A stretch of DNA of 64,000 bases, taken from positions 372,001 to 436,000 of the forward strand of contig CAJXKD010000001.1 of the NCBI GenBank assembly GCA_913055735.1. The letters are read 5' to 3'. The translations under genes were made by a program, and so were the position numbers. The stretch comes from an uncultured Rhodospirillales bacterium (GTDB lineage Bacteria > Pseudomonadota > Alphaproteobacteria > Rhodospirillales > UBA2165). Under the pieces are notes generated by a model. The model searched no databases, was not told where the DNA came from, and saw only the letters and a list, made by a program, of their open reading frames with translations. Below, one piece after another: positions 5,032 to 64,000 of the stretch; the stretch's first letter is position 1, and each line of letters starts with the position of its first letter.

Positions 5032-6627
5032 ATGAGCCGTTACACGATTTTCATCGCCATCGTCGTTTTGACCATCGTTGCGGCGGGACTGACCCTGGCA
5101 TCTTCCCTTTTCGTGTGGGCCTTTGCGCCGCTTCTCGTGCTGACACTCCTCGGAGTTTGGGATCTCGTGCAATCGGAGCACAGCATCCTGCGCAACTATC
5201 CGGTGATCGGCCATATGCGTTGGCTGTTCGAAGGTATCCGGCCCGAGATCCGGCAATATCTGATCGAAAGCGACCGCGACGAAACGCCGTTCAGCCGCGA
5301 ACAACGCTCGCTCGTCTATCAACGCGCCAAAGGCGAAGAAAGCGCACGGCCCTTCGGCACGCGCCATGACGTCTACGATTCGGGTTTTATCTGGCTGACC
5401 CATTCGGCGGCACCCAAGGCGCCGAGCGGTCACGACTTCCGCGTGACCATCGGCGGCGGCGATTGCCGGAAGCCCTACGACGCCTCCATCTACAACGTTT
5501 CCGCCATGAGCTTCGGGGCCCTCAGCGCCAACGCCATCCTGGCGCTCAATACGGGTGCCAAAATGGGCCACTTCGCGCACGATACCGGCGAAGGCGGCAT
5601 CAGCCGGTATCACCGCGAACCGGGCGGCGATTTGATCTGGGAAATCGGTTCCGGCTACTTCGGCTGCCGCGACGGCAACGGCAAGTTCGATCCGGCGCGA
5701 TTTAACGAGCAGGCACAGGCGGACCAGGTCAAAATGATCGAAGTGAAGCTGTCGCAAGGGGCCAAACCCGGGCACGGCGGCATGCTGCCGGCGACCAAGA
5801 TCACGCCGGAGATCGCCGAGGCGCGGGGTATCCCCATGGGCCAGGATTGCATTTCGCCCGCCTATCATAGTGCCTTTTCGACACCCATTGAGTTCATGCA
5901 TTTCCTGCAGGCCTTGCGCGAGAAGTCCGGCGGCAAACCGGTCGGGTTCAAGCTGTGCGTCGGCCATCGCTGGGAATTCATGGCCATGGTGAAAGCCATG
6001 CTCGAAACCGGCATCCGCCCCGATTACATCGTCGTCGACGGCAAGGAGGGCGGCACCGGCGCGGGCCCGTTGGAGTTCGTCAATCACCTCGGCACGCCGC
6101 TCACGGAGGGGCTTACCTTCGTCCGCAATGTGCTGACCGGTACGGGACTCCGCGACGATATCCGCATCGGTGCAAGCGGCAAGCTGGTCACCGCCTTCGA
6201 TCTCGTCTGGGCACATGCCCTGGGCGCCGACTGGTGCAATTCGGCGCGCGGATTCATGTTCTCGGTCGGCTGCATTCAGGCGCAAAGCTGCCACACCAAC
6301 CGATGCCCGACGGGCGTTGCCACCCAGGACCCGCTCCGGCAACGGGCGCTGAACGTTCCCGACAAGGCTCAGCGCGTGGCCAATTTTCACCGGAATACCT
6401 GCGAGGCATTGGCCCACATCGTCGGTGCCGCCGGGTTCATGCACCCCGAAGAACTGCAGCCGTGGCATTTGATGATCCGGCAACGCACCGGCGATGTCGT
6501 CTCGGCCGAGGAAGCCTTCCCTCTCTTGCAGAAAGGGGAACTGGTCAATGGACCGTGCGAGGACAGGACCTATGCCAAGCCGTGGGCGTTGGCCCGCGCC
6601 GACAGTTTCCTGCCTGCGGACAGCTAG
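5032..6627 (+). CDS. FMN-binding glutamate synthase family protein, membrane-anchored
   Basis: 531 aa. Residues about 4-45 contain two hydrophobic segments (TIFIAIVVLTIVAAG and LFVWAFAPLLVLTLLGVW), predicted as an N-terminal membrane anchor. The rest is the FMN/TIM-barrel synthase domain: the 3Fe-4S motif CIQAQSCHTNRCPTG has Cys at 414, 420 and 425, as in glutamate synthase. GKEGGTGAGPLEF is the FMN/substrate region. There is no amidotransferase domain, so it does not itself hydrolyse glutamine. This stand-alone family is common in proteobacteria; its true reaction is not established. It may form an operon with the SDR 90 nt downstream. Confidence 0.88.
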   Translation: MSRYTIFIAIVVLTIVAAGLTLASSLFVWAFAPLLVLTLLGVWDLVQSEHSILRNYPVIGHMRWLFEGIRPEIRQYLIESDRDETPFSREQRSLVYQRAKGEESARPFGTRHDVYDSGFIWLTHSAAPKAPSGHDFRVTIGGGDCRKPYDASIYNVSAMSFGALSANAILALNTGAKMGHFAHDTGEGGISRYHREPGGDLIWEIGSGYFGCRDGNGKFDPARFNEQAQADQVKMIEVKLSQGAKPGHGGMLPATKITPEIAEARGIPMGQDCISPAYHSAFSTPIEFMHFLQALREKSGGKPVGFKLCVGHRWEFMAMVKAMLETGIRPDYIVVDGKEGGTGAGPLEFVNHLGTPLTEGLTFVRNVLTGTGLRDDIRIGASGKLVTAFDLVWAHALGADWCNSARGFMFSVGCIQAQSCHTNRCPTGVATQDPLRQRALNVPDKAQRVANFHRNTCEALAHIVGAAGFMHPEELQPWHLMIRQRTGDVVSAEEAFPLLQKGELVNGPCEDRTYAKPWALARADSFLPADS

Positions 6628-6717
6628 GACACGACATCGCGCCCGGGATTGCAGGTCGCCCCGACGCCCTCGATAATCCATCCAACGAAAGAAACGCATC
6701 CAGGGAGACCGACGATC

Positions 6718-7491
6718 ATGGATATGGGGCTCAACGGCAAAACGGCGCTGGTCACCGGCGGCTCGAAAGGCATCGGCCTCGCGGTCGCGCATGGGTTGGC
6801 GGCGGAAGGCTGCAACCTGCATCTCGCAGCGCGCGGCCAGGAAGGGCTGGATGCCGCGGCCGAGGAAATCCGGGGCCGCCACAATGTGAGCATCGCCACC
6901 CATGCCGCCGATCTGAGCAATCCGGATGAGTTGGACGCGCTCGCGGAAGCCTGCAAGGACGTCGATATCCTCATCAACAATGCCGGCGCCATTCCGCGCG
7001 GCACGCTGCTCGACCTCGACGACCAGAAGCTGCGCGAGGTGTGGGAACTCAAACTGTTCGGTTACATCAACATGACCCGGCATCTCTACGGCCACATGAA
7101 GAGCCGGGGATCGGGCGTCATCGTCAATATCATCGGCGGGGCCGCCGACGTGGCGCCGCCCGACTATATCGCCGGCGCCATGGCCAATATCGCGCTCGTC
7201 AATCTCACCAAGGCGTTGGGCAAGGAAAGCACCTTCCACGGGGTGCGGGTGATCGGCATGCATCCGGCGGCGACGCTGACCGAACGGCTCGCCTTCCTGT
7301 TCGAGGAACGGGCGCAAAAACAATTGGGTGACAAAACGCGATGGAAGGAAGTGCTGCCCAAGCTGCCGTTCAACCGGCCGACCGAGCCTTCGGAAGTGGC
7401 CGACATGGTGGTGTTCCTGGCGTCCGAGCGCGCAGGCTACTCATCGGGGGTGGTGTACAGCATTTCCGGCGGGGTCGCGGGCGGGGAATAG
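6718..7491 (+). CDS. SDR-fold protein with altered catalytic residues
   Basis: 257 aa from the ATG at 6718, chosen because it is preceded by GGGAGA and begins a normal SDR N-terminus; an in-frame upstream start at 6649 adds an unstructured 23 residues. TGGSKGIG (cofactor loop) and NNAG are intact, so NAD(P) binding is expected. The active site is unusual: Tyr150 is present in PPDYIAGAMAN, but the position four residues on, normally Lys, is Ala154, and the Ser expected 12-13 residues before Tyr falls in VNIIGGAAD, which has none. Either a divergent SDR subgroup with a different proton relay or a non-reductase. Close to the GltB-like gene, same strand. Confidence 0.85.
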   Translation: MDMGLNGKTALVTGGSKGIGLAVAHGLAAEGCNLHLAARGQEGLDAAAEEIRGRHNVSIATHAADLSNPDELDALAEACKDVDILINNAGAIPRGTLLDLDDQKLREVWELKLFGYINMTRHLYGHMKSRGSGVIVNIIGGAADVAPPDYIAGAMANIALVNLTKALGKESTFHGVRVIGMHPAATLTERLAFLFEERAQKQLGDKTRWKEVLPKLPFNRPTEPSEVADMVVFLASERAGYSSGVVYSISGGVAGGE

Positions 7492-7503
7492 CCGGATACC
7501 CGC

Positions 7504-8457
7504 TCAGGAGCGCGCGACCAAGTAATACCATTCCTTCTCGAGGTCATTGAGGGAGCGGCCATAAACGGCCCGGTACGATCCGCCGGTATAGACCTGTTTA
7601 AATGGCTCGACGCCGTACCTCTCGATGAGAAACCCGACGAAGGAGCCGGCGAGGAAATATTCAAACGATTTCTGCATTCCGGTCGCGTCGGGGCCGCCAT
7701 ATCCGGATTTCCCGTTCCGCTGATCCAGATAGGCAAAATACCCGCCGGTAAAATTGTTTGCCGTGGACATCCATCGCGGCATGCGGCCCAAGGGCGGCAC
7801 ATTGGCCGAGTCACCGAACCGCGTGTGCAAATAAACCGCGAGGCCTTCGGACAGCAGCCAACTGTTGTTGCTGTCTTCGGTCCAGAAATGATGGGAGGCG
7901 ACGGCGTGAGCGACCTCGTGGGTCGTGCTGATTTTCATCCCGATCCGGCGCGCCGCGTTATACGGCAAAATAACCACCGACCGGCTTTCCCGCGACACCA
8001 ACACGTTGTCTCTAAAGTGCCGGTAGGAGACCGAGCGCGTTACCGGATGGGCTTCGCCGGTGTTCTTGAGAATGAGGACCGGGACAAGATCCGGCGGCGC
8101 AACATTCAAAAACCTGCTGACGTTGTCGACGGACCGTTGGGCGTGATCCGCAAGCGCCGCCAACTCGGCGACCGGAACTTCATCGGTAACGAGACAAACG
8201 TTGCGGCGGAGCGCATGACATTGGCGGCGGTTGGCCGAAAGCGCGTTTGCGAAATCGAACAGCTGCTTGTCGGTCAGACGCATCGGCGCGCCGGCTAGGT
8301 GCTGCGATACCGATGTACCCGTCGACACCCTCGGCTCAGAGGTGGATACGCAGCCGGCCAGGGCGGCAGCCGCCAGAACAAGCACCGCCAGCCGCACCAT
8401 CGCGTTCATCTCAACAAAGCCCCATCCGATTGCTCTCTCGATCGCCGCTTTTGACAT
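7504..8457 (-). CDS. lipoprotein with gluzincin-type HEXXH motif (putative metallopeptidase)
   Basis: 317 aa. A hydrophobic stretch ending in the lipobox LAGC (Cys36) predicts a lipoprotein exported by Sec and anchored in the outer or inner membrane. The HEVAH motif at 180-184 and a second acidic ligand candidate, Glu204 in WLLSEGLAVY, reproduce the HEXXH...(N/S)EG pattern of M1-like or MA-like peptidases. The ATG at 8457 is favoured by a clear AGGGAG ribosome site 7 nt upstream, although it gives a long 22-residue n-region; ATG at 8409 would be more usual for a signal peptide. Convergent with the SDR gene. No exact family recognised; proteolytic activity is an inference from the motif. Confidence 0.7.
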   Translation of the reverse strand: MSKAAIERAIGWGFVEMNAMVRLAVLVLAAAALAGCVSTSEPRVSTGTSVSQHLAGAPMRLTDKQLFDFANALSANRRQCHALRRNVCLVTDEVPVAELAALADHAQRSVDNVSRFLNVAPPDLVPVLILKNTGEAHPVTRSVSYRHFRDNVLVSRESRSVVILPYNAARRIGMKISTTHEVAHAVASHHFWTEDSNNSWLLSEGLAVYLHTRFGDSANVPPLGRMPRWMSTANNFTGGYFAYLDQRNGKSGYGGPDATGMQKSFEYFLAGSFVGFLIERYGVEPFKQVYTGGSYRAVYGRSLNDLEKEWYYLVARS

Positions 8458-9257: not shown

Positions 9258-11972
9258 CTAGCGCCGTATCCGCCGGATTGCCCATTTTTCGGCCTCGACC
9301 AACAGGAGGATCGAGACGGATACCGCCAAAATCCGCCCCCAATCCGCGACGCTCAACGGCCGGCTGTCGAATAGGAACTGCATGGGGGGCGCGTAGATGA
9401 AAGCAAGCTGCAGCAGGACCGTCACCGCGACGGCTAACAAGACCCAACGGTTGCCGAACAGCCCGGCGGGGGTCAAAACCGGGGCGCTCAAATACCGGGT
9501 GTTGAACAGATAGAAGATCTCGAACATCACCACGGTGGTGACGGCGACGGTCCGCGCGTGCGCGACATCGCCATCGCCGGATTGCGCCACGATAAACAAC
9601 GTGAAGGTTCCCGCGATCAACAGCACCGTCACGAAGAGAATCCGCCAAACGAGGAAGGCGGACAGCAATGGCGCGCCGGGTTTGCGCGGCGGCACCTTCA
9701 TAATGTCCCGTTCGGGAGGTTCGAAGGCGAGCGCCAGCGCGAGCGTTACCGTGGTGATCATGTTTACCCACAGAATCTGCACGGGGGTCAAAGGCAACGC
9801 CATGCCGAGCAGCACCGCCAATACGATGATCGACGCCTCGCCCGCACTGGTCGGCAGGATGAAGGCGATGGACTTGGTCAGATTGGCGTAAACCGTGCGC
9901 CCCTCCTCCACCGCGTCGGCAATGGTCGCGAAATTGTCGTCGGTGAGAACGATCTCGGCGGCTTCCTTGGCCGCGTCCGTCCCCTTGCGACCCATGGCAA
10001 CGCCGACATCCGCCTGTTTCAAGGCAGGTGCGTCGTTGACCCCATCGCCGGTCATGGCCACCACCTGACCGGTGGTTTGAAACGCGCGCACCAGCCGCAA
10101 CTTATGCTCGGGAGTTGTCCGGGCGAACACGTTCGCCTGGGCCGCCCGCTCCACGAGCGCGGACTCATCGAGGTGGTCGATGTCATGACCGGTTAGAACG
10201 CCGTCCTCACCAAGTCCCAGTTGACGGGCAATCGCCGAGGCGGTGTTTGCATGATCACCGGTAACCATCTTTACCGTAATGCCTGCCTGATGACATCGGC
10301 GCACGGCAGCGATCGCTTCTTCGCGGGGCGGATCGGCAAGACCGAAGAGGCCCAGCAAAGTAAGCCCCGCTTGAACGTCATCGAAGGATAGGCTGCGTTG
10401 TTCCGCCGGCAAGACGGCGGACGCGATGGCCAGCGTCCGCTGTCCGTTCGCCGCGATGCGCGCCATGCAGTCCTCCCAGTAGGCGGGATCGACGGCGGCA
10501 TCGCCCTCCGCGGTGCGCTCGCGCGAACACATTGCCAGGATGCGTTCCGGCGCCCCCTTGACCACCAACAGCCCTTCGCCCGTATCACCGTGATGCAACG
10601 TGGCCATAAATCTATGTTCCGCTTCAAACGGAATAAGGTCGGTCCGGGGGAACTGTTCCTTTTCCACGTCTGGATCGAGCCCGGCCTTCATGGCCGCAGC
10701 GATCAAGGCGCCCTCCATGGGATCACCGCCGACGGTCCACGTGCCGTCGACAGAAGACAAGTGTGCGTCGCTGCAAAGGAGCGCGCCACGCAAGGCGTCG
10801 CGAATATCAGTACGCGTGCCGACATCAGTAGTGACGCCGTTGCGGCTAAACGCCCCTTCCGGCACGTAGCCGGCCCCACTAACCGTGTAGATGCCGTCCC
10901 GCACCGCGAGGGACTCAACCATCATCTCGTTCAGCGTCAGAGTGCCGGTTTTGTCGGAACAAATGAGCGTAACGGAGCCCAATGCTTCGACCACCGGCAA
11001 CCGCCGAACGATGGCATGGCGGCGGGCCATGCGCTGCACGCCGATGGCAAGCGCAATGGTGAGAATGGCCGGCAGGCCTTCCGGGATCGCAGCAACGGCA
11101 AGACCGACCGAGGCAAGAAACATCTCTGTGAGGTCGTAGCCGCGTGCCCAGATACCGAAGGCGAACGTTGCGACCGCCACCGCAACGATGACCAGCGTCA
11201 GCCAGCGGCCGAAACCGGCCAACTGGCGCATAAGCGGCGTATCAACTCCCTGCACCTCGGCGACGAGTTTGCCGATCCGGCCAACCTCCGTCGCGACGCC
11301 GGTCGCCACCACAATTCCCGCGGCCTGTCCCGTCGTTATCATCGTACCGGCATACGCCATCGACGTTCGGTCGCCGAGATCGGCATCGGCGGCCACCGGG
11401 CCGATCGTCTTTGCAACCGGCACCGCCTCGCCGGTCAGGGCCGCTTCCTGCGCGTTTACGTTGCGCGCCTCGAACAGGCGGATATCGGCGGGAACGCGAT
11501 CCCCGGATTGCAAAAATACCACGTCACCGGGCACCAACTCATCGGCGACAATCGAACGCCGGCGTCCGTCGCGCAGCACATTGGCCTGCACGCGCAACAA
11601 ATCGCGAATGGCCGCCAGGGCCGCCTCCGCCTTTCCCTCCTGGATGAAGCCGATGGTGGCGTTGATGATAACGACGCCATAGATCACCGCGGCATCGACA
11701 TAGTGGCCAAGGGCAACTGTTACGGCCCCCGCGGCGATCAGAACATAGATCAGAACGTTGTGGAATTGCTGTGCCAGACGGCGCAACGCCCCTCGCCGCC
11801 GCGCAAGGTCCAAGCGATTGGGGCCCCATTCCTGCAAGCGACGCGCCGCTTCGTCGGCACTCAATCCTTTGCGCGTCACGCGTTGCGCATCGAACACCGC
11901 CTCGGCAGCCATGGCATACCAAGCATCGGAAGCACTGCTTCTTTCGGCCTTTCTATTCCCTAGCTTGGTCAT
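9258..11972 (-). CDS. cation-transporting P-type ATPase (type II, Ca2+/Na+ class)
   Basis: 904 aa from the ATG at 11972 (a TTG at 12014 is the alternative start). The order of motifs is that of P2 ATPases: an N-terminal cation_ATPase_N region (GLSADEAARRLQEWGPNRL), the TGE phosphatase loop at 180-182, IPEGLPA in TM4 (the Ca2+ site sequence of SERCA/PMCA-type pumps), phosphorylated Asp340 in CSDKTGTLT, MVTGDHANTA, and TGDGVNDAPALK in the hinge. About ten transmembrane segments are expected. It should expel a cation, probably Ca2+ or Na+, across the inner membrane at the cost of ATP. Single gene, minus strand. Metal specificity cannot be fixed by eye. Confidence 0.93.
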   Translation of the reverse strand: MTKLGNRKAERSSASDAWYAMAAEAVFDAQRVTRKGLSADEAARRLQEWGPNRLDLARRRGALRRLAQQFHNVLIYVLIAAGAVTVALGHYVDAAVIYGVVIINATIGFIQEGKAEAALAAIRDLLRVQANVLRDGRRRSIVADELVPGDVVFLQSGDRVPADIRLFEARNVNAQEAALTGEAVPVAKTIGPVAADADLGDRTSMAYAGTMITTGQAAGIVVATGVATEVGRIGKLVAEVQGVDTPLMRQLAGFGRWLTLVIVAVAVATFAFGIWARGYDLTEMFLASVGLAVAAIPEGLPAILTIALAIGVQRMARRHAIVRRLPVVEALGSVTLICSDKTGTLTLNEMMVESLAVRDGIYTVSGAGYVPEGAFSRNGVTTDVGTRTDIRDALRGALLCSDAHLSSVDGTWTVGGDPMEGALIAAAMKAGLDPDVEKEQFPRTDLIPFEAEHRFMATLHHGDTGEGLLVVKGAPERILAMCSRERTAEGDAAVDPAYWEDCMARIAANGQRTLAIASAVLPAEQRSLSFDDVQAGLTLLGLFGLADPPREEAIAAVRRCHQAGITVKMVTGDHANTASAIARQLGLGEDGVLTGHDIDHLDESALVERAAQANVFARTTPEHKLRLVRAFQTTGQVVAMTGDGVNDAPALKQADVGVAMGRKGTDAAKEAAEIVLTDDNFATIADAVEEGRTVYANLTKSIAFILPTSAGEASIIVLAVLLGMALPLTPVQILWVNMITTVTLALALAFEPPERDIMKVPPRKPGAPLLSAFLVWRILFVTVLLIAGTFTLFIVAQSGDGDVAHARTVAVTTVVMFEIFYLFNTRYLSAPVLTPAGLFGNRWVLLAVAVTVLLQLAFIYAPPMQFLFDSRPLSVADWGRILAVSVSILLLVEAEKWAIRRIRR

Positions 11973-58297: not shown

Positions 58298-59152
58298 ATG
58301 ACCGAATACGCCATCCAACCCCGCCGCAGCCTGCTCTATCTTCCCGGCGCCCGGCCCGAAATGTATCCCAAGGCCCTCAAAAGCGGTGCCGACATCGTGT
58401 GCGTGGATTTGGAGGACGCGGTCTCCGCGGATGTGAAGGATGAGACCCGCGCCAATGTTTTCGCGCTGTTCGCGGAGCCTTATGACGGTGACGTCGAGCG
58501 GCTGATCCGCCTCAACGGCGTCGAAACGGACGCCGGCAAGGCCGATCTTGAGGCGCTATCGCAGGCCGAAATCCCGTTGGATGGGGTCGTCATACCTAAA
58601 TGTGCAGATCCCGACCACGTCACGATGGTCGAGGACGCCGCCTGGTCGCGCCATCCTGATCTGCGTATCCATCCGCTCATCGAGTCCGCGCAGGGCGCGG
58701 AGGCGGCCTTCGACATCGCCGCCGCCAGCCCGCGTGTCGGTTTCATCATGCTGGGATCGCAGGATATGGCCACGAGCCTCCGCGCCGATCACGCCTGGGA
58801 GCCGTTGCTCTATACGCGATCGCGGCTGGTCGCGGCGGCCGCCGCGCACGGCAAGGACGTGCTAGATGCGCCCTATTTCGACATCGGCGATCTCGATGGG
58901 CTCGCCGATGAAACGGAAAAGGTTCGCGCTCTCGGGTTCGTCGGCAAGTCGGCCATTCATCCCAAGCAGATCGAAACCATCAACGGCATCTTCTCGCCGA
59001 ACGCCGACGAGGTCGACCGGGCACGTAATCTCGTCGCCAAATTCGAAGGCCAGGATCTCGCCGCGGTGATGATCGACGGTGAATTCATGGAACCGCCCAT
59101 CATCGCGCGCCTCAAACGGATCATCGCCATCGCCGACCGCATCGGCCTATAA
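58298..59152 (+). CDS. HpcH/HpaI aldolase-citrate lyase family protein (CitE-like)
   Basis: 284 aa from the ATG at 58298 (AAGGAGCG upstream). RRSLLYLPGARPEMYPKALK, DIVCVDLEDAVSADVKDETR (metal and Arg loop) and GFVGKSAIHPKQIETINGIF are the CitE/malyl-CoA lyase features. It cleaves or forms a C-C bond in a CoA ester or hydroxy acid, e.g. malyl-CoA, citramalyl-CoA or (S)-citramalyl-type substrates. The next gene starts 32 nt on; the pair is likely an operon. Its place beside a Liv-type importer suggests a role in using the imported compound. Confidence 0.9.
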   Translation: MTEYAIQPRRSLLYLPGARPEMYPKALKSGADIVCVDLEDAVSADVKDETRANVFALFAEPYDGDVERLIRLNGVETDAGKADLEALSQAEIPLDGVVIPKCADPDHVTMVEDAAWSRHPDLRIHPLIESAQGAEAAFDIAAASPRVGFIMLGSQDMATSLRADHAWEPLLYTRSRLVAAAAAHGKDVLDAPYFDIGDLDGLADETEKVRALGFVGKSAIHPKQIETINGIFSPNADEVDRARNLVAKFEGQDLAAVMIDGEFMEPPIIARLKRIIAIADRIGL

Positions 59153-59183
59153 GAAAAACCACGAGAACCAGGAACTTCCTTCC

Positions 59184-59981
59184 ATGGCCAACGGCTTCCC
59201 CGAACGCACCCAAGCGCCACGCCTGCATGTCGACCAGGGCGGCAGCGGTGACACCGTCTATCTGCTGGTTCACGGGCTCAGCACCACCGGCGCGGTGTGG
59301 CGCGACCTCGCCAAGATCATCGAAGACATGGGCGCCGGACGCTGGATCGCGCCCGATCTACGCGGCCAGGGGAGTTCAGATTGGGCGCTGAGCTATGGCA
59401 TGGGTGAACAGACCATGGACGTAGTGCCGCTGGTACGCGACGCGGAACGCCTGATCGTCATCGGCCATTCCAAAGGCGGACTCGTCGCCATGCTGTTGGG
59501 CAGTGGCTGGTTCGGCGTCAACCCGGCCGGTGTCATCGTCCTCGGCTGCAAGACCACTTTCACCGATGAACAGTTCGCTCGGGTGATGGCCTATGCCGAG
59601 AAACCGGCGCGCTGGTTCGACAGTTTCGACGACGCGGCCGAACGCTACATGAAAGCCTCCGGCTTGATCGGCCTCGTCGACCCCGACGATCCGCGCACCG
59701 CGCGGGGTGTTGCCGAAGGGCCGGGCGGTTTCCGCCTTGCCGCCGATCCCATTTGCACGGTGCCGGGCGGCGATGCCGCCCCCTATTACGGCACGGTCAG
59801 GTGCCCGGTGGTGATGGCGACGGGCAGCGAAGATCATATCGCGCCGTCCGAACCCATGTTCGACCTGCATCCGGAAACGGTGGTGATCGAAGGGGCGCCG
59901 CACAATGTCCACGTCACCCATCCCAAAGAGGTCTGGAATCTGGTCGGGCGGCTCGAAGAGAAGATCAAAATGATCAATTAA
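59184..59981 (+). CDS. alpha/beta hydrolase fold protein
   Basis: 265 aa from the ATG at 59184. LLVHGLSTTGAVWRDLAKII gives the oxyanion-hole region, Ser96 the nucleophile (VIGHSKGGLVAML), Asp217 in GSEDHIAP and His240/His243 in GAPHNVHVTHP the rest of the triad. Its stop (59979-59981) overlaps the convergent stop of the 2H phosphoesterase gene. Substrate unknown; co-located with the CitE-like lyase. Confidence 0.9.
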   Translation: MANGFPERTQAPRLHVDQGGSGDTVYLLVHGLSTTGAVWRDLAKIIEDMGAGRWIAPDLRGQGSSDWALSYGMGEQTMDVVPLVRDAERLIVIGHSKGGLVAMLLGSGWFGVNPAGVIVLGCKTTFTDEQFARVMAYAEKPARWFDSFDDAAERYMKASGLIGLVDPDDPRTARGVAEGPGGFRLAADPICTVPGGDAAPYYGTVRCPVVMATGSEDHIAPSEPMFDLHPETVVIEGAPHNVHVTHPKEVWNLVGRLEEKIKMIN

Positions 59982-60589
59982 TTTGTGGCAGATATTTTAT
60001 CTTGTTCCACCGAAACGGGACGGTTCACCATCCAAGTTAAGTGAGACGCAAGCCTGTTAATTAGGCTGATGCGTTTCCAATCCGGGAGCGTTCGGACGAC
60101 GTCGACAGTCAATTCTTCATCTGCAACTTTCCGGAGTAGATCCTTATCAATTCCAAACCAGAGCCCCATTTCTTTCTGTCCGCTGATTGATTTTCTGGTC
60201 CGAACTGCACCAATCTCAAGCGAAAAAAACATTCGGGTCTGATTTAAGGAACTATATAACTTTTCGGCAAACTCACGAGACGGACCATCATAGATCGTGA
60301 TATGCGGATTGAATCCAAAATCCTTTTTGCTCCAGTGTTTCTTGAGAAATTCAGAGCCACACCTGAGAAACACCGTATTCTGACCAGACTCAAAAAAATT
60401 GCCTACACCGACAACCGAAACTTCAGTACCAATCAGTGATAGCGGCAAGTTTTCACTCGCGATCATCGTCGGTCCCTGAATTGTAATGTGTGCAGAATCT
60501 TTCTCTAGTGGGTTCGCGATATATACCATTGCGTCCAAGCATGCTTGGATTTCCAGGCTCTGAAAATATAAGACAACGAACCAGCGCAT
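59978..60589 (-). CDS. 2H phosphoesterase (LigT/2'-5' RNA ligase-like)
   Basis: 203 aa. Two HxT motifs are clear: His34/Thr36 in SAHITIQG and His96/Thr98 in NPHITIYD, the diagnostic pair of the 2H phosphoesterase fold, which acts on 2',3'-cyclic or 2',5'-linked phosphodiester bonds of RNA or nucleotides. The N-terminus MRWFVVLYFQSLEI fits that family. Residues about 103-203 form an extra charged domain (GAVRTRKSISGQKEMGLWFG) not part of the minimal fold. The gene follows the nucleotidyltransferase by 11 nt and shares its AT-rich composition; no Shine-Dalgarno is visible, which suggests coupling. Its stop overlaps the hydrolase stop. Confidence 0.82.
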   Translation of the reverse strand: MRWFVVLYFQSLEIQACLDAMVYIANPLEKDSAHITIQGPTMIASENLPLSLIGTEVSVVGVGNFFESGQNTVFLRCGSEFLKKHWSKKDFGFNPHITIYDGPSREFAEKLYSSLNQTRMFFSLEIGAVRTRKSISGQKEMGLWFGIDKDLLRKVADEELTVDVVRTLPDWKRISLINRLASHLTWMVNRPVSVEQDKISATN

Positions 60590-60600
60590 TAATGATTCTA

Positions 60601-61581
60601 TTAAATAATTAAGTAACGGAGCTGTTCACTATTTGCGACAGCTCTTAATAGAAGGTGGATAAGATTTCCGAAATTCCTAGCCCTGGTAAAGGCTTCATCT
60701 CGTGTTTTTCGGTCTCCTATCCACTCTAAGACCTCTTTCTCCTCCCGACCAGTCATTTCTAAAAACCACGCATAGTGCTGCCCTATTTCGTCTATACGCT
60801 GAGAAAGATCATCTGACGACCGGTCGAGGCTATCCAGCCTTTGCAGGGGGGTCTGCTCAACGACCTCCAGGATTTTCTGCGGATCAATAGCTCCTTTAAT
60901 CGCCATTATTGAAATAATCATAGAGTAACAAATAAGTAACCGACTAAATTTCAGCTTAAAATTAGCCAAGTGCGAGCGATTCTTTTGATAATCTGAAATA
61001 TCCCCGCCTCTATTTCTACGGTGCTCAAAATTTAAACAAAGTGTCCTCCAGAATCTCTGAATGTCATTGACCAAGAAAATCGGAAGAAAATCTTTTTCAT
61101 GGTCATGATAATCTCTGAAATATGAGTCAATTATCTCACCAATCGCCTTATTGTATATTCCTTCGTTAAATATTGAGACGCTCTCCAATAACAATAACAT
61201 TCTCGCTGTAAATAAATTTCGGTAGTCATCCTCATGCCCACCCAAAAGATTTAGGATGTCGTCCAAGTAATGGACTTGGAGATAAATCCCGCCCTTCGTA
61301 AATTCTGGAAACTTGAGCTTTCTACAGGCTTTGACAACTGCCGCGTCTGTCAGAGATTTTTCAACAACCGAAATTGCATTTTTTTTCTCTGAACCTTGCC
61401 GCACGAAAAACAGGTCGAGATCCGAGTATCTCGAAGCCTCGAAACGACCATAAGACCCCGTTGCATAGATGCACGTGTCCGCAACGATATCTGGGTTTCC
61501 TGCAATTGCCTTTTCTAGTTGGCCTATCCTGTCGACGGCAAATTCACGTCGATCCTTGATCGTCTGGATATCGCAGATCAT
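60601..61581 (-). CDS. nucleotidyltransferase with large helical C-terminal domain
   Basis: 326 aa. The polymerase-beta-type active site is YATGSYGRFEASRYSDLDLF: Gly42-Ser43, then Asp54 and Asp56, the two metal-binding acidic residues. A third carboxylate may be Asp107/Asp108 in QVHYLDDIL. About 190 residues of helical sequence follow (FLVNDIQRFWRTLCLNFEH, then SRLLICYSMIISIMAIKG), larger than the minimal MNT antitoxin and without the HD/ACT domains of GlnD. It would transfer a nucleotidyl group from NTP to a protein, RNA or small acceptor. Composition is AT-rich (19 G/C in the 60 bases 61141-61200). First gene of a pair with the 2H phosphoesterase. Confidence 0.8.
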   Translation of the reverse strand: MICDIQTIKDRREFAVDRIGQLEKAIAGNPDIVADTCIYATGSYGRFEASRYSDLDLFFVRQGSEKKNAISVVEKSLTDAAVVKACRKLKFPEFTKGGIYLQVHYLDDILNLLGGHEDDYRNLFTARMLLLLESVSIFNEGIYNKAIGEIIDSYFRDYHDHEKDFLPIFLVNDIQRFWRTLCLNFEHRRNRGGDISDYQKNRSHLANFKLKFSRLLICYSMIISIMAIKGAIDPQKILEVVEQTPLQRLDSLDRSSDDLSQRIDEIGQHYAWFLEMTGREEKEVLEWIGDRKTRDEAFTRARNFGNLIHLLLRAVANSEQLRYLII

Positions 61582-61650
61582 GAATCACTTCTCGAAAAAT
61601 GGATGTCAGCGTGGCGCTTTAGAAAAGGAGAAAGGAAAATGTCGTAAATG

Positions 61651-61667
61651 CCTTCTATGATAGAAGG
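61651..61667. promoter_or_regulatory. dyad CCTTCTA-TGA-TAGAAGG upstream of the NTase gene
   Basis: Perfect 7-bp arms (61651-61657 and 61661-61667) about 70 nt upstream of the NTase start and within the 122-nt gap to the IOR stop. It may be an operator for the cassette or the remnant of a terminator for IOR; no U-tract was seen. Confidence 0.35.
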
Positions 61668-61703
61668 AACGCAACCAGTTTTACAACTCGAAGTCTAAAT
61701 TCT

Positions 61704-64000
61704 CTATTCGGCTGCCGCCATGTCGCGGTCGGGTGCCTGCAATTTGGCGCGGAGCATCTCCGCATCGGTCTTCACCTCGTCCACCGCCCGTTTCTTGATA
61801 TGCCCGAACCCCTTGATGCGTTGCGGCAACGCCGCCAGCGCGACGGCGTCATCGTAATTGGCCGGTGACAGTGCCGAGAGGATCTCATCGACGGTCGCGC
61901 GATAATCGGCGAGCAATCGCCGTTCCATCCGCCGGTCGGCCCCATAGCCGAATATATCGAAAGCCGTGCCGCGAAGGAATTTGAGCTTGGCCAATAGCTG
62001 CAATGCAAAGTACCACGCCGCCGGGTATTCCAGTTTTTGCGGCTCACCGGTCAGCGGGTTGGTGCGGGCGAGCAGCGGCGGCGCGAAATGGAAGGCGATC
62101 TTGAAGTCGCCTTCAAACGTATCCTTGAGGTTCTTTTCGAACCGGCCGTCGGTGAACAGCCGCGCCACCTCGTACTCGTCCTTGTAGGCCATCAGCTTGT
62201 AGAGACTGCGGGCGGCAGCCTCGGTGAGATCGGTGCGGCCAGGATTCACATTTGCCATGACCCGTCTTTCCGCTTCCGCCACGCGGTCGACAAGCGCCCG
62301 GTAGTTATTTGCATAAGCTACATTCTGATAGTCAGTCAGGGAGCCGACACGGCGGGCAATGATGTCGTCGAGCGTCTCCGTCGCATCAGGTTCCGCCGGT
62401 TTACCGGCAAGCGCGGCAATCCGCGCCGGATCCGCCGCGGCAGCCCGGCCCCAAGCCAACGCACGCAGGTTCGCGTCCACCGCCACGCCGTTGAGGCGGA
62501 TCGCTTCTTCCAGCGCCTTGAGACCGATGGGCAGATAGCCTTTCTGCAAGGCAAAACCGAGCTGGAAGATATTGGCCATGATGGTATCGCCAAGTAGCTT
62601 TTCGGCGATGCGCGTGGCATCCAGCAAGGTCGCGTTTTCGGTGCCGATGATCGCCGTGATGGCGTCGCGGTAACCGTCCTGACCGATGTTCATTTCCGGG
62701 TTCTCGGCGAACGCGGCAAGTGGGACCAGATGATCATTGATCACGGCACGGCTGCGCCCGGCCGACAGCGTGCCCAGCGGACCCTTCCCTGCCGCCGCGA
62801 TCATGTCAAAGCCCAACAATAAATCCGTAAGCCCGGCGCCGATACGAGTAGCGACGTTCTGTCCCGGTTCGGCGGCGATACGGATGTGGCTGCCAACGGC
62901 GCCGTTCTTTTGCGAAAGCCCGGTTTCGTCGAGCACCGTGACGCTGCGCCCCTCGATATGCGCCGCTGTGCCCAACAAAGCGCTGATGGTGATCACGCCG
63001 GTACCGCCGATGCCGGCAAGCAAGATGTTGTAACTGCCGTCGATGGGCGCGAGGGTCGGCGCGGGCAATCCCGCGGCGGGGTCCGCTTCCGATGTCGCCG
63101 TTTCCGGCTTGGCCGATCTCTTGAGCGTGCCTCCGGTTACCGTCACGAAAGACGGACAGAAACCATCAAGACAGGAGAAATCCTTGTTGCAGCTCGATTG
63201 ATCGATGCGCCGTTTGCGCCCGAAAGGCGTGTCCAACGGGCGCACCGCGACACAGTTGGATTTGACGCCGCAATCGCCGCAGCCTTCGCAGACCATTTCG
63301 TTGATGAACACCCGTTTGTCGGGATCGGGAAAGGTACCGCGCTTGCGGCGGCGGCGTTTCTCGGCGGCGCAGGTTTGATCATAGATGATGGCGGTGACAC
63401 CCGGCACCTCGCGCAATTCGCGCTGGACCTTGTCCAATTCGATGCGCGGATGAACCTTCACGCCGGGCGCCCAATCGGTGCTTTTGGGATATTTGTCGGG
63501 CTCGTCGGTGACGACGTCGATGCGCCCGACCCCCTCGGCCCTCAACTGACGCGAAATGTCGTCCGGCAGGAAGCCGCCCTCGACCGTCTGGCCGCCGGTC
63601 ATGGCGACGGCGTCGTTGTAAAGGATCTTGTAGGTGATGTTGACGCCCGCGCGCACGGCGGCGCGCACCGCCATCAGCCCCGAATGGTAATAGGTGCCGT
63701 CGCCCATGTTCTGGAACACATGCTTGGACGTGGTGAACGGCGCCTGGCCGATCCAATGACCGCCCTCGCCGCCCATATGCGTGTACGGCCCGGCATTGCG
63801 GTCCATTTGAATGGCCAGGGTATGACAGCCGATGCCCGACAACGTGCGGCTTCCCGCCGGCACCCGGGTCGAGGTGTTATGCGGACAGCCCGCGCAGAAC
63901 CACGGTTTGCGCTCGGTCAACTCGACGTTGCGGCCTTCCGATTTGGTGCGCTGCGAAAGCGTCGCCAACGCATCCTGTAAACAGCCCTGGCGTTCTTCTT
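61704..64000 (-). CDS. indolepyruvate ferredoxin oxidoreductase, fused type (5' end off the window)
   Basis: The reading frame is open from the stop at 61704 to the window edge at 64000 (about 765 codons), so the N-terminal thiamine-pyrophosphate half is missing. Visible are RKPWFCAGCPHNTSTRV (TPP-domain end), a Cys cluster VCEGCGDCGVKSNC and SCNKDFSCLDGFC (Fe-S), and the gamma domain ILLAGIGGTGVITISALLG with TGLSQKNGAVGSHIRI. This is the single-chain alpha-beta-gamma form found in proteobacteria; it oxidatively decarboxylates aryl or branched 2-oxo acids to acyl-CoA, passing electrons to ferredoxin. A TTG at 63968 is not accepted as a start because the frame continues upstream. Confidence 0.92.
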   Translation of the reverse strand, partial: EERQGCLQDALATLSQRTKSEGRNVELTERKPWFCAGCPHNTSTRVPAGSRTLSGIGCHTLAIQMDRNAGPYTHMGGEGGHWIGQAPFTTSKHVFQNMGDGTYYHSGLMAVRAAVRAGVNITYKILYNDAVAMTGGQTVEGGFLPDDISRQLRAEGVGRIDVVTDEPDKYPKSTDWAPGVKVHPRIELDKVQRELREVPGVTAIIYDQTCAAEKRRRRKRGTFPDPDKRVFINEMVCEGCGDCGVKSNCVAVRPLDTPFGRKRRIDQSSCNKDFSCLDGFCPSFVTVTGGTLKRSAKPETATSEADPAAGLPAPTLAPIDGSYNILLAGIGGTGVITISALLGTAAHIEGRSVTVLDETGLSQKNGAVGSHIRIAAEPGQNVATRIGAGLTDLLLGFDMIAAAGKGPLGTLSAGRSRAVINDHLVPLAAFAENPEMNIGQDGYRDAITAIIGTENATLLDATRIAEKLLGDTIMANIFQLGFALQKGYLPIGLKALEEAIRLNGVAVDANLRALAWGRAAAADPARIAALAGKPAEPDATETLDDIIARRVGSLTDYQNVAYANNYRALVDRVAEAERRVMANVNPGRTDLTEAAARSLYKLMAYKDEYEVARLFTDGRFEKNLKDTFEGDFKIAFHFAPPLLARTNPLTGEPQKLEYPAAWYFALQLLAKLKFLRGTAFDIFGYGADRRMERRLLADYRATVDEILSALSPANYDDAVALAALPQRIKGFGHIKKRAVDEVKTDAEMLRAKLQAPDRDMAAAE

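Follow-up and report, generated by a model that had tools for sequence, protein, structure and literature searches.

A two-gene cassette encoding a nucleotidyltransferase (NTase) and a 2H phosphoesterase was found in a 64,000-nucleotide stretch of DNA (the window) from an uncultured Rhodospirillales bacterium (assembly GCA_913055735.1, contig CAJXKD010000001.1, positions 372,001 to 436,000). Across genomes, the NTase and a partner gene, which encodes either a 2H phosphoesterase or a DEDDh 3'-5' exonuclease, are a real recurring unit with conserved active sites. Judging from its fold and motif, the NTase probably belongs with GlnE, GlnD and DrrA, a kind of enzyme whose members, where studied, modify proteins. 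We propose, as a plausible reading that falls a little short of probable, that the pair is a reversible nucleotidyl-mark module, in which the NTase would mark a target, likely a protein, and the partner would take the mark off again.

The NTase has one of two partners in all 64 loci examined

Both genes lie on the minus strand, with the NTase (60601..61581, 326 aa) first and the 2H phosphoesterase (59978..60589, 203 aa) downstream after a spacer of 11 nt (60590..60600), and co-transcription is predicted. A preliminary description of the window had reported this arrangement at 59978..61581, with the Gly-Ser and Asp54/Asp56 residues of the NTase and both HxT motifs of the 2H protein intact; both genes proved to be open frames at these positions, and the residues are present and conserved in column counts. 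It had also held that the idea of a functional pair would fail if the genes were not co-located elsewhere or if either active site were degenerate, and the pair withstood this test, being co-located in 22 2H-type loci with neither active site degenerate.

A genome scan with an NTase alignment, which stopped at 80 candidate stretches, yielded at least 64 confirmed loci. A partner gene was present in all 64, and none had both partners or neither in the fetched flanks. The 2H gene lies directly downstream of the NTase in 22 loci, five of which encode it as a domain within a fusion protein. A DEDDh exonuclease replaces it in the remaining 42, a split that describes this sample; this second partner could not be seen from the window sequence on which the preliminary description rested. 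The distance between the NTase stop and the 2H start ranges from -4 to +13 nt in 20 of the 22 2H-type loci, while L004 and L010 were called with an earlier start. In 38 of its 42 loci the exonuclease gene precedes the NTase in the same orientation, and in four actinobacterial ones (L018, L020, L023, L025) it is divergent; its active-site residues D, E, D, H and D are each conserved in 41/41 sequences. Two exonucleases that were scanned matched the Pfam Rv2179c-like 3'-5' exoribonuclease family above the cut-off.

The 2H family gave a single match in 13/13 2H-type genomes and none in 14/14 exonuclease-type genomes (a test covering the genomes of 27 of the 64 loci), and for L003, L012 and L016 this match was confirmed by coordinates as the NTase neighbour. 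A search of 398 genomes of the phylum gave a 2H match at E 1e-6 in the window's own genome only and an NTase match at E 1e-20 or better in four; three of these four are distant relatives with neither 2H nor exonuclease in the fetched flanks. A protein search returned 691 NTase homologs (120 listed) and 31 2H homologs. In a tree that left out rows L001 (a copy of the window), L044, L062 and L064, the exonuclease rows require two changes, and the 2H group forms one side of a branch with a support of only 68. The NTase frame is interrupted in L044 and L064, where the exonuclease is intact, and the exonuclease is broken in L047; L062, which has Ns in the region, was not counted. These loss patterns are not informative. 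Given this recurrence and the conservation of the active sites, we rejected the explanation that the pair is ordinary or an artefact.

Fold and motif relate the NTase to protein-modifying enzymes

The window NTase contains G42-S43, R46, E48, D54 and D56, in keeping with the catalytic motif GS/GG...GRxE...SDxDL of GlnE/GlnD/DrrA-type NTases. G42, S43 and R46 are conserved in 63/63 readable rows, and D54 and D56 in 62/63 each; N207, K209, S213 and R214 are conserved in the helical domain. The motif profile matched that of GlnD with 93% probability over 34 columns, the GlnD frames having been picked by size and motif rather than by a family search. The predicted structure aligned over 257-265 of 325 residues, that is, over the whole fold, with the protein AMPylators DrrA/SidM and GlnE. 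The preliminary description had named no family of known biology for the pair; these matches allow the NTase to be placed. The window genome also carries its own GlnE.

By sequence profile, however, the best PDB matches of the window NTase are minimal NTases (MNTs), and judged by sequence alone the GlnE/GlnD/DrrA kind is not separated from them. Neither window protein reached a Pfam cut-off. The poly(A)/CCA polymerase kind was ruled out for the NTase at a profile probability of 0.1%, and no poly(A) polymerase was among the 50 rows of a second structure comparison. As for the cyclic-oligonucleotide-synthesizing NTases (CD-NTases) of the cyclic-oligonucleotide-based antiphage signalling system (CBASS), the window protein matched none of the PADLOC cyclase models at E up to 1, and the two-gene insert holds no dedicated effector gene of the CBASS type. 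The NTase matched the PADLOC profile PDC-M70A (2e-29), as did the three NTase relatives scanned, which cover both partner types. This profile belongs to PDC-M70, a putative defence candidate (PDC); the 2H and exonuclease partners that were scanned gave no hit to a profile of the name PDC-M70B. PDCs are described as unvalidated as a class (PMC12988326).

The NTase domain is followed by a HEPN-like helical domain in which, by eye, no RNase motif is present; this combination of domains is described in PMC3710099. Tyrosine is the target of GlnD and DrrA. More generally, studied members of this writer fold attach AMP or UMP to protein tyrosines (PMC12409994, PMC3480911, PMC7641770).

The partner is a 2H phosphoesterase of a distinct subfamily

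The window 2H protein has a predicted bilobal fold with two intact Hx[ST] motifs, H34-I-T36 and H96-I-T98, the second followed by Y100-D-G. H34 is conserved in 23/23 rows, T36 in 22/23 (S in one), H96 and T98 in 22/22 and Y100 in 21/22. The predicted core spans approximately residues 1-142 and is followed by a C-terminal extension of about 60 residues, mostly helices, shorter than the 100 residues given in the preliminary description. The model matched cyclic phosphodiesterases and Acb1. In Pfam, 2_5_RNA_ligase2 scored 18.9 bits, below the gathering score of 27, while PF13563 is precomputed for many 2H relatives; no PDB sequence matched at E up to 1. Compared with other 2H proteins (YjcG, plant cyclic phosphodiesterase, Acb1, Usb1), the subfamily is set apart by its HxTxYDG signature, its helical tail and an NTase neighbour in every 2H locus fetched.

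The cassette is a foreign-looking insert

The pair occupies an insert of 1.7 kb (59982..61703) between two convergent host genes. On the left is an alpha/beta-hydrolase-like gene (59079..59981, plus strand, family assigned by eye), which overlaps the 2H gene by 4 nt at their stops, and on the right an indolepyruvate-oxidoreductase-like gene (61704..63968, minus strand, named by eye). The GC content of the insert is 0.427 versus 0.60 in its surroundings, and the lowest value among 588 same-size windows outside it, within the window, is 0.559. The NTase and 2H genes are the only ones inside. A weak sigma-70-like sequence agreeing with the consensus at 9/12 positions lies upstream of the NTase (61657..61686, minus strand), a consensus match only, of a grade seen six times in the region versus 2.4 expected from shuffles.

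The right-hand gene was matched in 33/60 genomes searched, its own included, and the surrounding loci were returned for 11 other genomes, all of the same family as the window genome. Directly across from it, without the NTase-2H pair, is the hydrolase gene in six of these relatives and a citE-like gene in three; in the other two, neither gene is within the fetched flank. A strong NTase match was found in only 1/24 genomes of the family, the window's own, and in 12 others the match covered just 35-43 residues of frames 525-1,181 aa long, which are GlnD-like by motif. Because relatives lack the insert at the same spot and the rest of the family lacks a strong NTase, the pair was most likely gained by this lineage. 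It is a foreign-looking and most likely mobile two-gene module.

Several kinds of mobile element were considered and rejected. No terminal repeats stood out in a repeat scan and the insert holds no further gene, which speaks against a transposon or insertion-sequence cassette. As for a phage gene, a search of 50,697 phage records gave no match to the NTase, and viral contigs gave one distant match to the NTase and none to the 2H protein; as for a plasmid gene, the NTase was matched in only 4/72,556 records, all below 32% identity.

Defence genes occur near some 2H-type loci

Restriction-modification, CBASS or PDC genes are fused to or near the pair in 6/22 2H-type loci (L011, L012, L014, L015, L016, L050), L014 and the fusion in L012 being assigned by our own reading. 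A type I restriction subunit is directly upstream of the pair in L011, and a PDC-M62A protein is nearby in L012. In L015, genes for QueC, TGT, a CD-NTase cyclase, a 2TM effector and OGG, a CBASS set that we take to be type IV, begin 365 nt past the pair. Fusions in the family involve restriction-modification enzymes and HNH; the HNH fusions (P0130, P0133) are known as protein database entries. The other genes of L008 and L010 were scanned and gave no countable defence call, a kinase-like match in L008 not being counted. The scan covered 2H-type neighbourhoods, in which 146 neighbours were at least 150 aa long; 141 were scanned together (25 of 177 families shown) and five singly with four repeats. 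As a control, 44 ordinary window genes matched four families (mad2, mad3, mad8, AriA), with no restriction and no CBASS cyclase among them, this control being small and from one genome. The link to defence islands raised in the preliminary description thus has some support from the fusions and from the CBASS operon beside one locus, but with so small a control the association is only indicative. Taken together, mobility and neighbours make it likely that the NTase-2H pair serves in defence or as toxin and antidote.

In L012 (12697-13338) and L016 (12685-13323), the gene after the 2H-methylase fusion contains an ECKR motif and possibly encodes a PD-(D/E)xK nuclease; the L016 copy had no Pfam or PADLOC match. 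In L003, two related genes (6228-7781 and 9720-11363, approximately 520-550 aa) without a PADLOC match stand on either side of the NTase-2H cassette. In exonuclease-type loci such as L048 (7344-8000), the DEDDh exonuclease carries a PADLOC label of CBASS effector, though it is beside a GlnE-like NTase and not a CD-NTase, and the label may be a mix-up.

A proposed reversible nucleotidyl mark and alternative explanations

In the proposed module, the acceptor of the nucleoside monophosphate (likely AMP) that the NTase transfers would be a hydroxyl group of a target, likely a protein tyrosine, and hydrolysis of the resulting phosphodiester, likely by the 2H enzyme, would restore the target. Mobility and neighbours suggest that the mark may inactivate some component of host or phage in the course of an attack, or be toxic unless the partner holds it in check. 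Phosphodiester hydrolysis is common to 2H and DEDDh enzymes. Since two unrelated phosphodiesterase folds exchange in one slot, they may share one job, removal of the mark, and such an exchange of erasers is the simplest reading of the alternation. Adjacent writer and eraser genes have a precedent in the AMPylator SidM/DrrA and its deAMPylase SidD, and here, too, the partner gene adjoins the NTase gene. SidD, however, has a phosphatase fold, and the window NTase corresponds in length to just the AMPylating part of SidM/DrrA and resides in a mobile bacterial cassette, with nothing to suggest an injected effector. In GlnD, the NTase domain adds UMP and a fused HD domain removes it, whereas here the genes are separate, the eraser fold is another and the distribution is patchy, differences that also apply to GlnE. 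That a nuclease can act as a protein deAMPylase is known from RNase Z (PMC12663964).

Two points weigh against this proposal. One is that 2H enzymes normally rely for their chemistry on an adjacent ribose hydroxyl. The other concerns RNase T, which is a DEDDh enzyme; it was inactive on SelO substrates (PMC12663964). MntA can attach to a tyrosine a chain of three AMPs linked 3'-5' (PMC7641770), and we speculate that an oligo-AMP mark would fit 2H and DEDDh partners better than a single AMP and would join the protein and RNA readings.

It is unlikely that the partner is instead the target, with the NTase nucleotidylating the 2H or DEDDh protein beside its active site and so silencing a toxic nuclease, as in HEPN-MNT (type VII) systems. 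Those systems likewise couple a GS...DxD NTase to a nuclease-like partner with a Tyr beside the catalytic motif, yet their NTases are at most half the size of the window NTase (326 aa), which has its own long helical domain, unlike MNTs of under 150 aa (PMC7641770), and the partners here are 2H or DEDDh proteins and not HEPN proteins with an Rx4-6H motif. The NTase would furthermore need to recognize two unrelated folds, the exonuclease is encoded divergently in the four actinobacterial loci, L044 and L064 retain an intact exonuclease beside a broken NTase, and Y100 is not strictly invariant. Quite unlikely, too, is RNA 3'-end editing, in which the NTase would extend RNA 3' ends (e.g. of tRNA) for the partner to trim back, either as a toxin-antidote pair or for RNA repair. 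Trimming of RNA 3' ends is known for both partner folds, the 2H enzyme Usb1 deadenylates U6 with cyclic-phosphate ends (PMC8406329), and the exoribonuclease matches of the two exonucleases, weak sub-threshold matches of NTase relatives to the Pfam mitochondrial poly(A) polymerase domain and the conserved N207, K209, S213 and R214 all point the same way. Against it stand the missing poly(A)/CCA polymerase profile similarity and the whole-fold matches to protein AMPylators, TENT2 ranking only 41st by Foldseek (E 0.24); a 2H enzyme leaving a cyclic phosphate would also be expected to block re-extension. Production of an oligonucleotide second messenger that the partner degrades is very improbable. 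No third gene is widely shared, the largest other neighbour cluster among the loci comprising five genes (blastp clustering of called neighbours). CD-NTase models matched only weakly, in relative L016 (E 0.0065 and 0.031), and HalB aligned to the NTase model at a template-modelling score of ~0.2.

No paper describing this pair was found in the literature searched (one library). The general type of module, a writer of nucleotidyl marks accompanied by a phosphodiesterase, is a known one, and this combination was not found described there.

Distant NTase relatives have varied neighbours

An HD-domain protein adjoins the distant NTase relative in viral contig L066 and in the 4.5-kb E. coli plasmid L067, where it is annotated 'HD domain-containing protein', and lies ~540 nt from the relative in L097; none was found in the fetched flanks of L095 and L096. 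Other neighbours are a histidine-phosphatase-like gene in L066, an annotated histidine phosphatase in L068 and a sugar-phosphate isomerase in L069. As neighbours vary among these relatives, strict pairing is a trait of the close NTase family and not of the distant one. A wider scheme, a mobile protein-tagging switch with one GlnE/GlnD-like writer, exchangeable 2H or DEDDh erasers and HD proteins in distant kin, is doubtful. If true, it would make the 2H and DEDDh partners the first enzymes with these folds to remove nucleotidyl marks, and would link protein AMPylation to restriction-modification and CBASS islands.

In the viral contig (IMG/VR; L066, 3405-7428), C5-methyltransferase-like, HD, distant NTase and histidine-phosphatase-like genes are consecutive, mostly named by eye. 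The plasmid with the HD-NTase pair, pISHS7_5 (L067, 1-4499), has a near-identical copy in 1/5426 E. coli genomes, itself. In three genomes of one genus (L092, L093, L094), distant NTase relatives lie within ~1 kb of an adenosylhomocysteinase-like gene (by eye), and an HD protein is near only one of them. Finally, the 418-aa NTase relative P0118 has a YbeY-like piece in frame before it (precomputed PF02130), possibly a remnant of an insertion-site gene.
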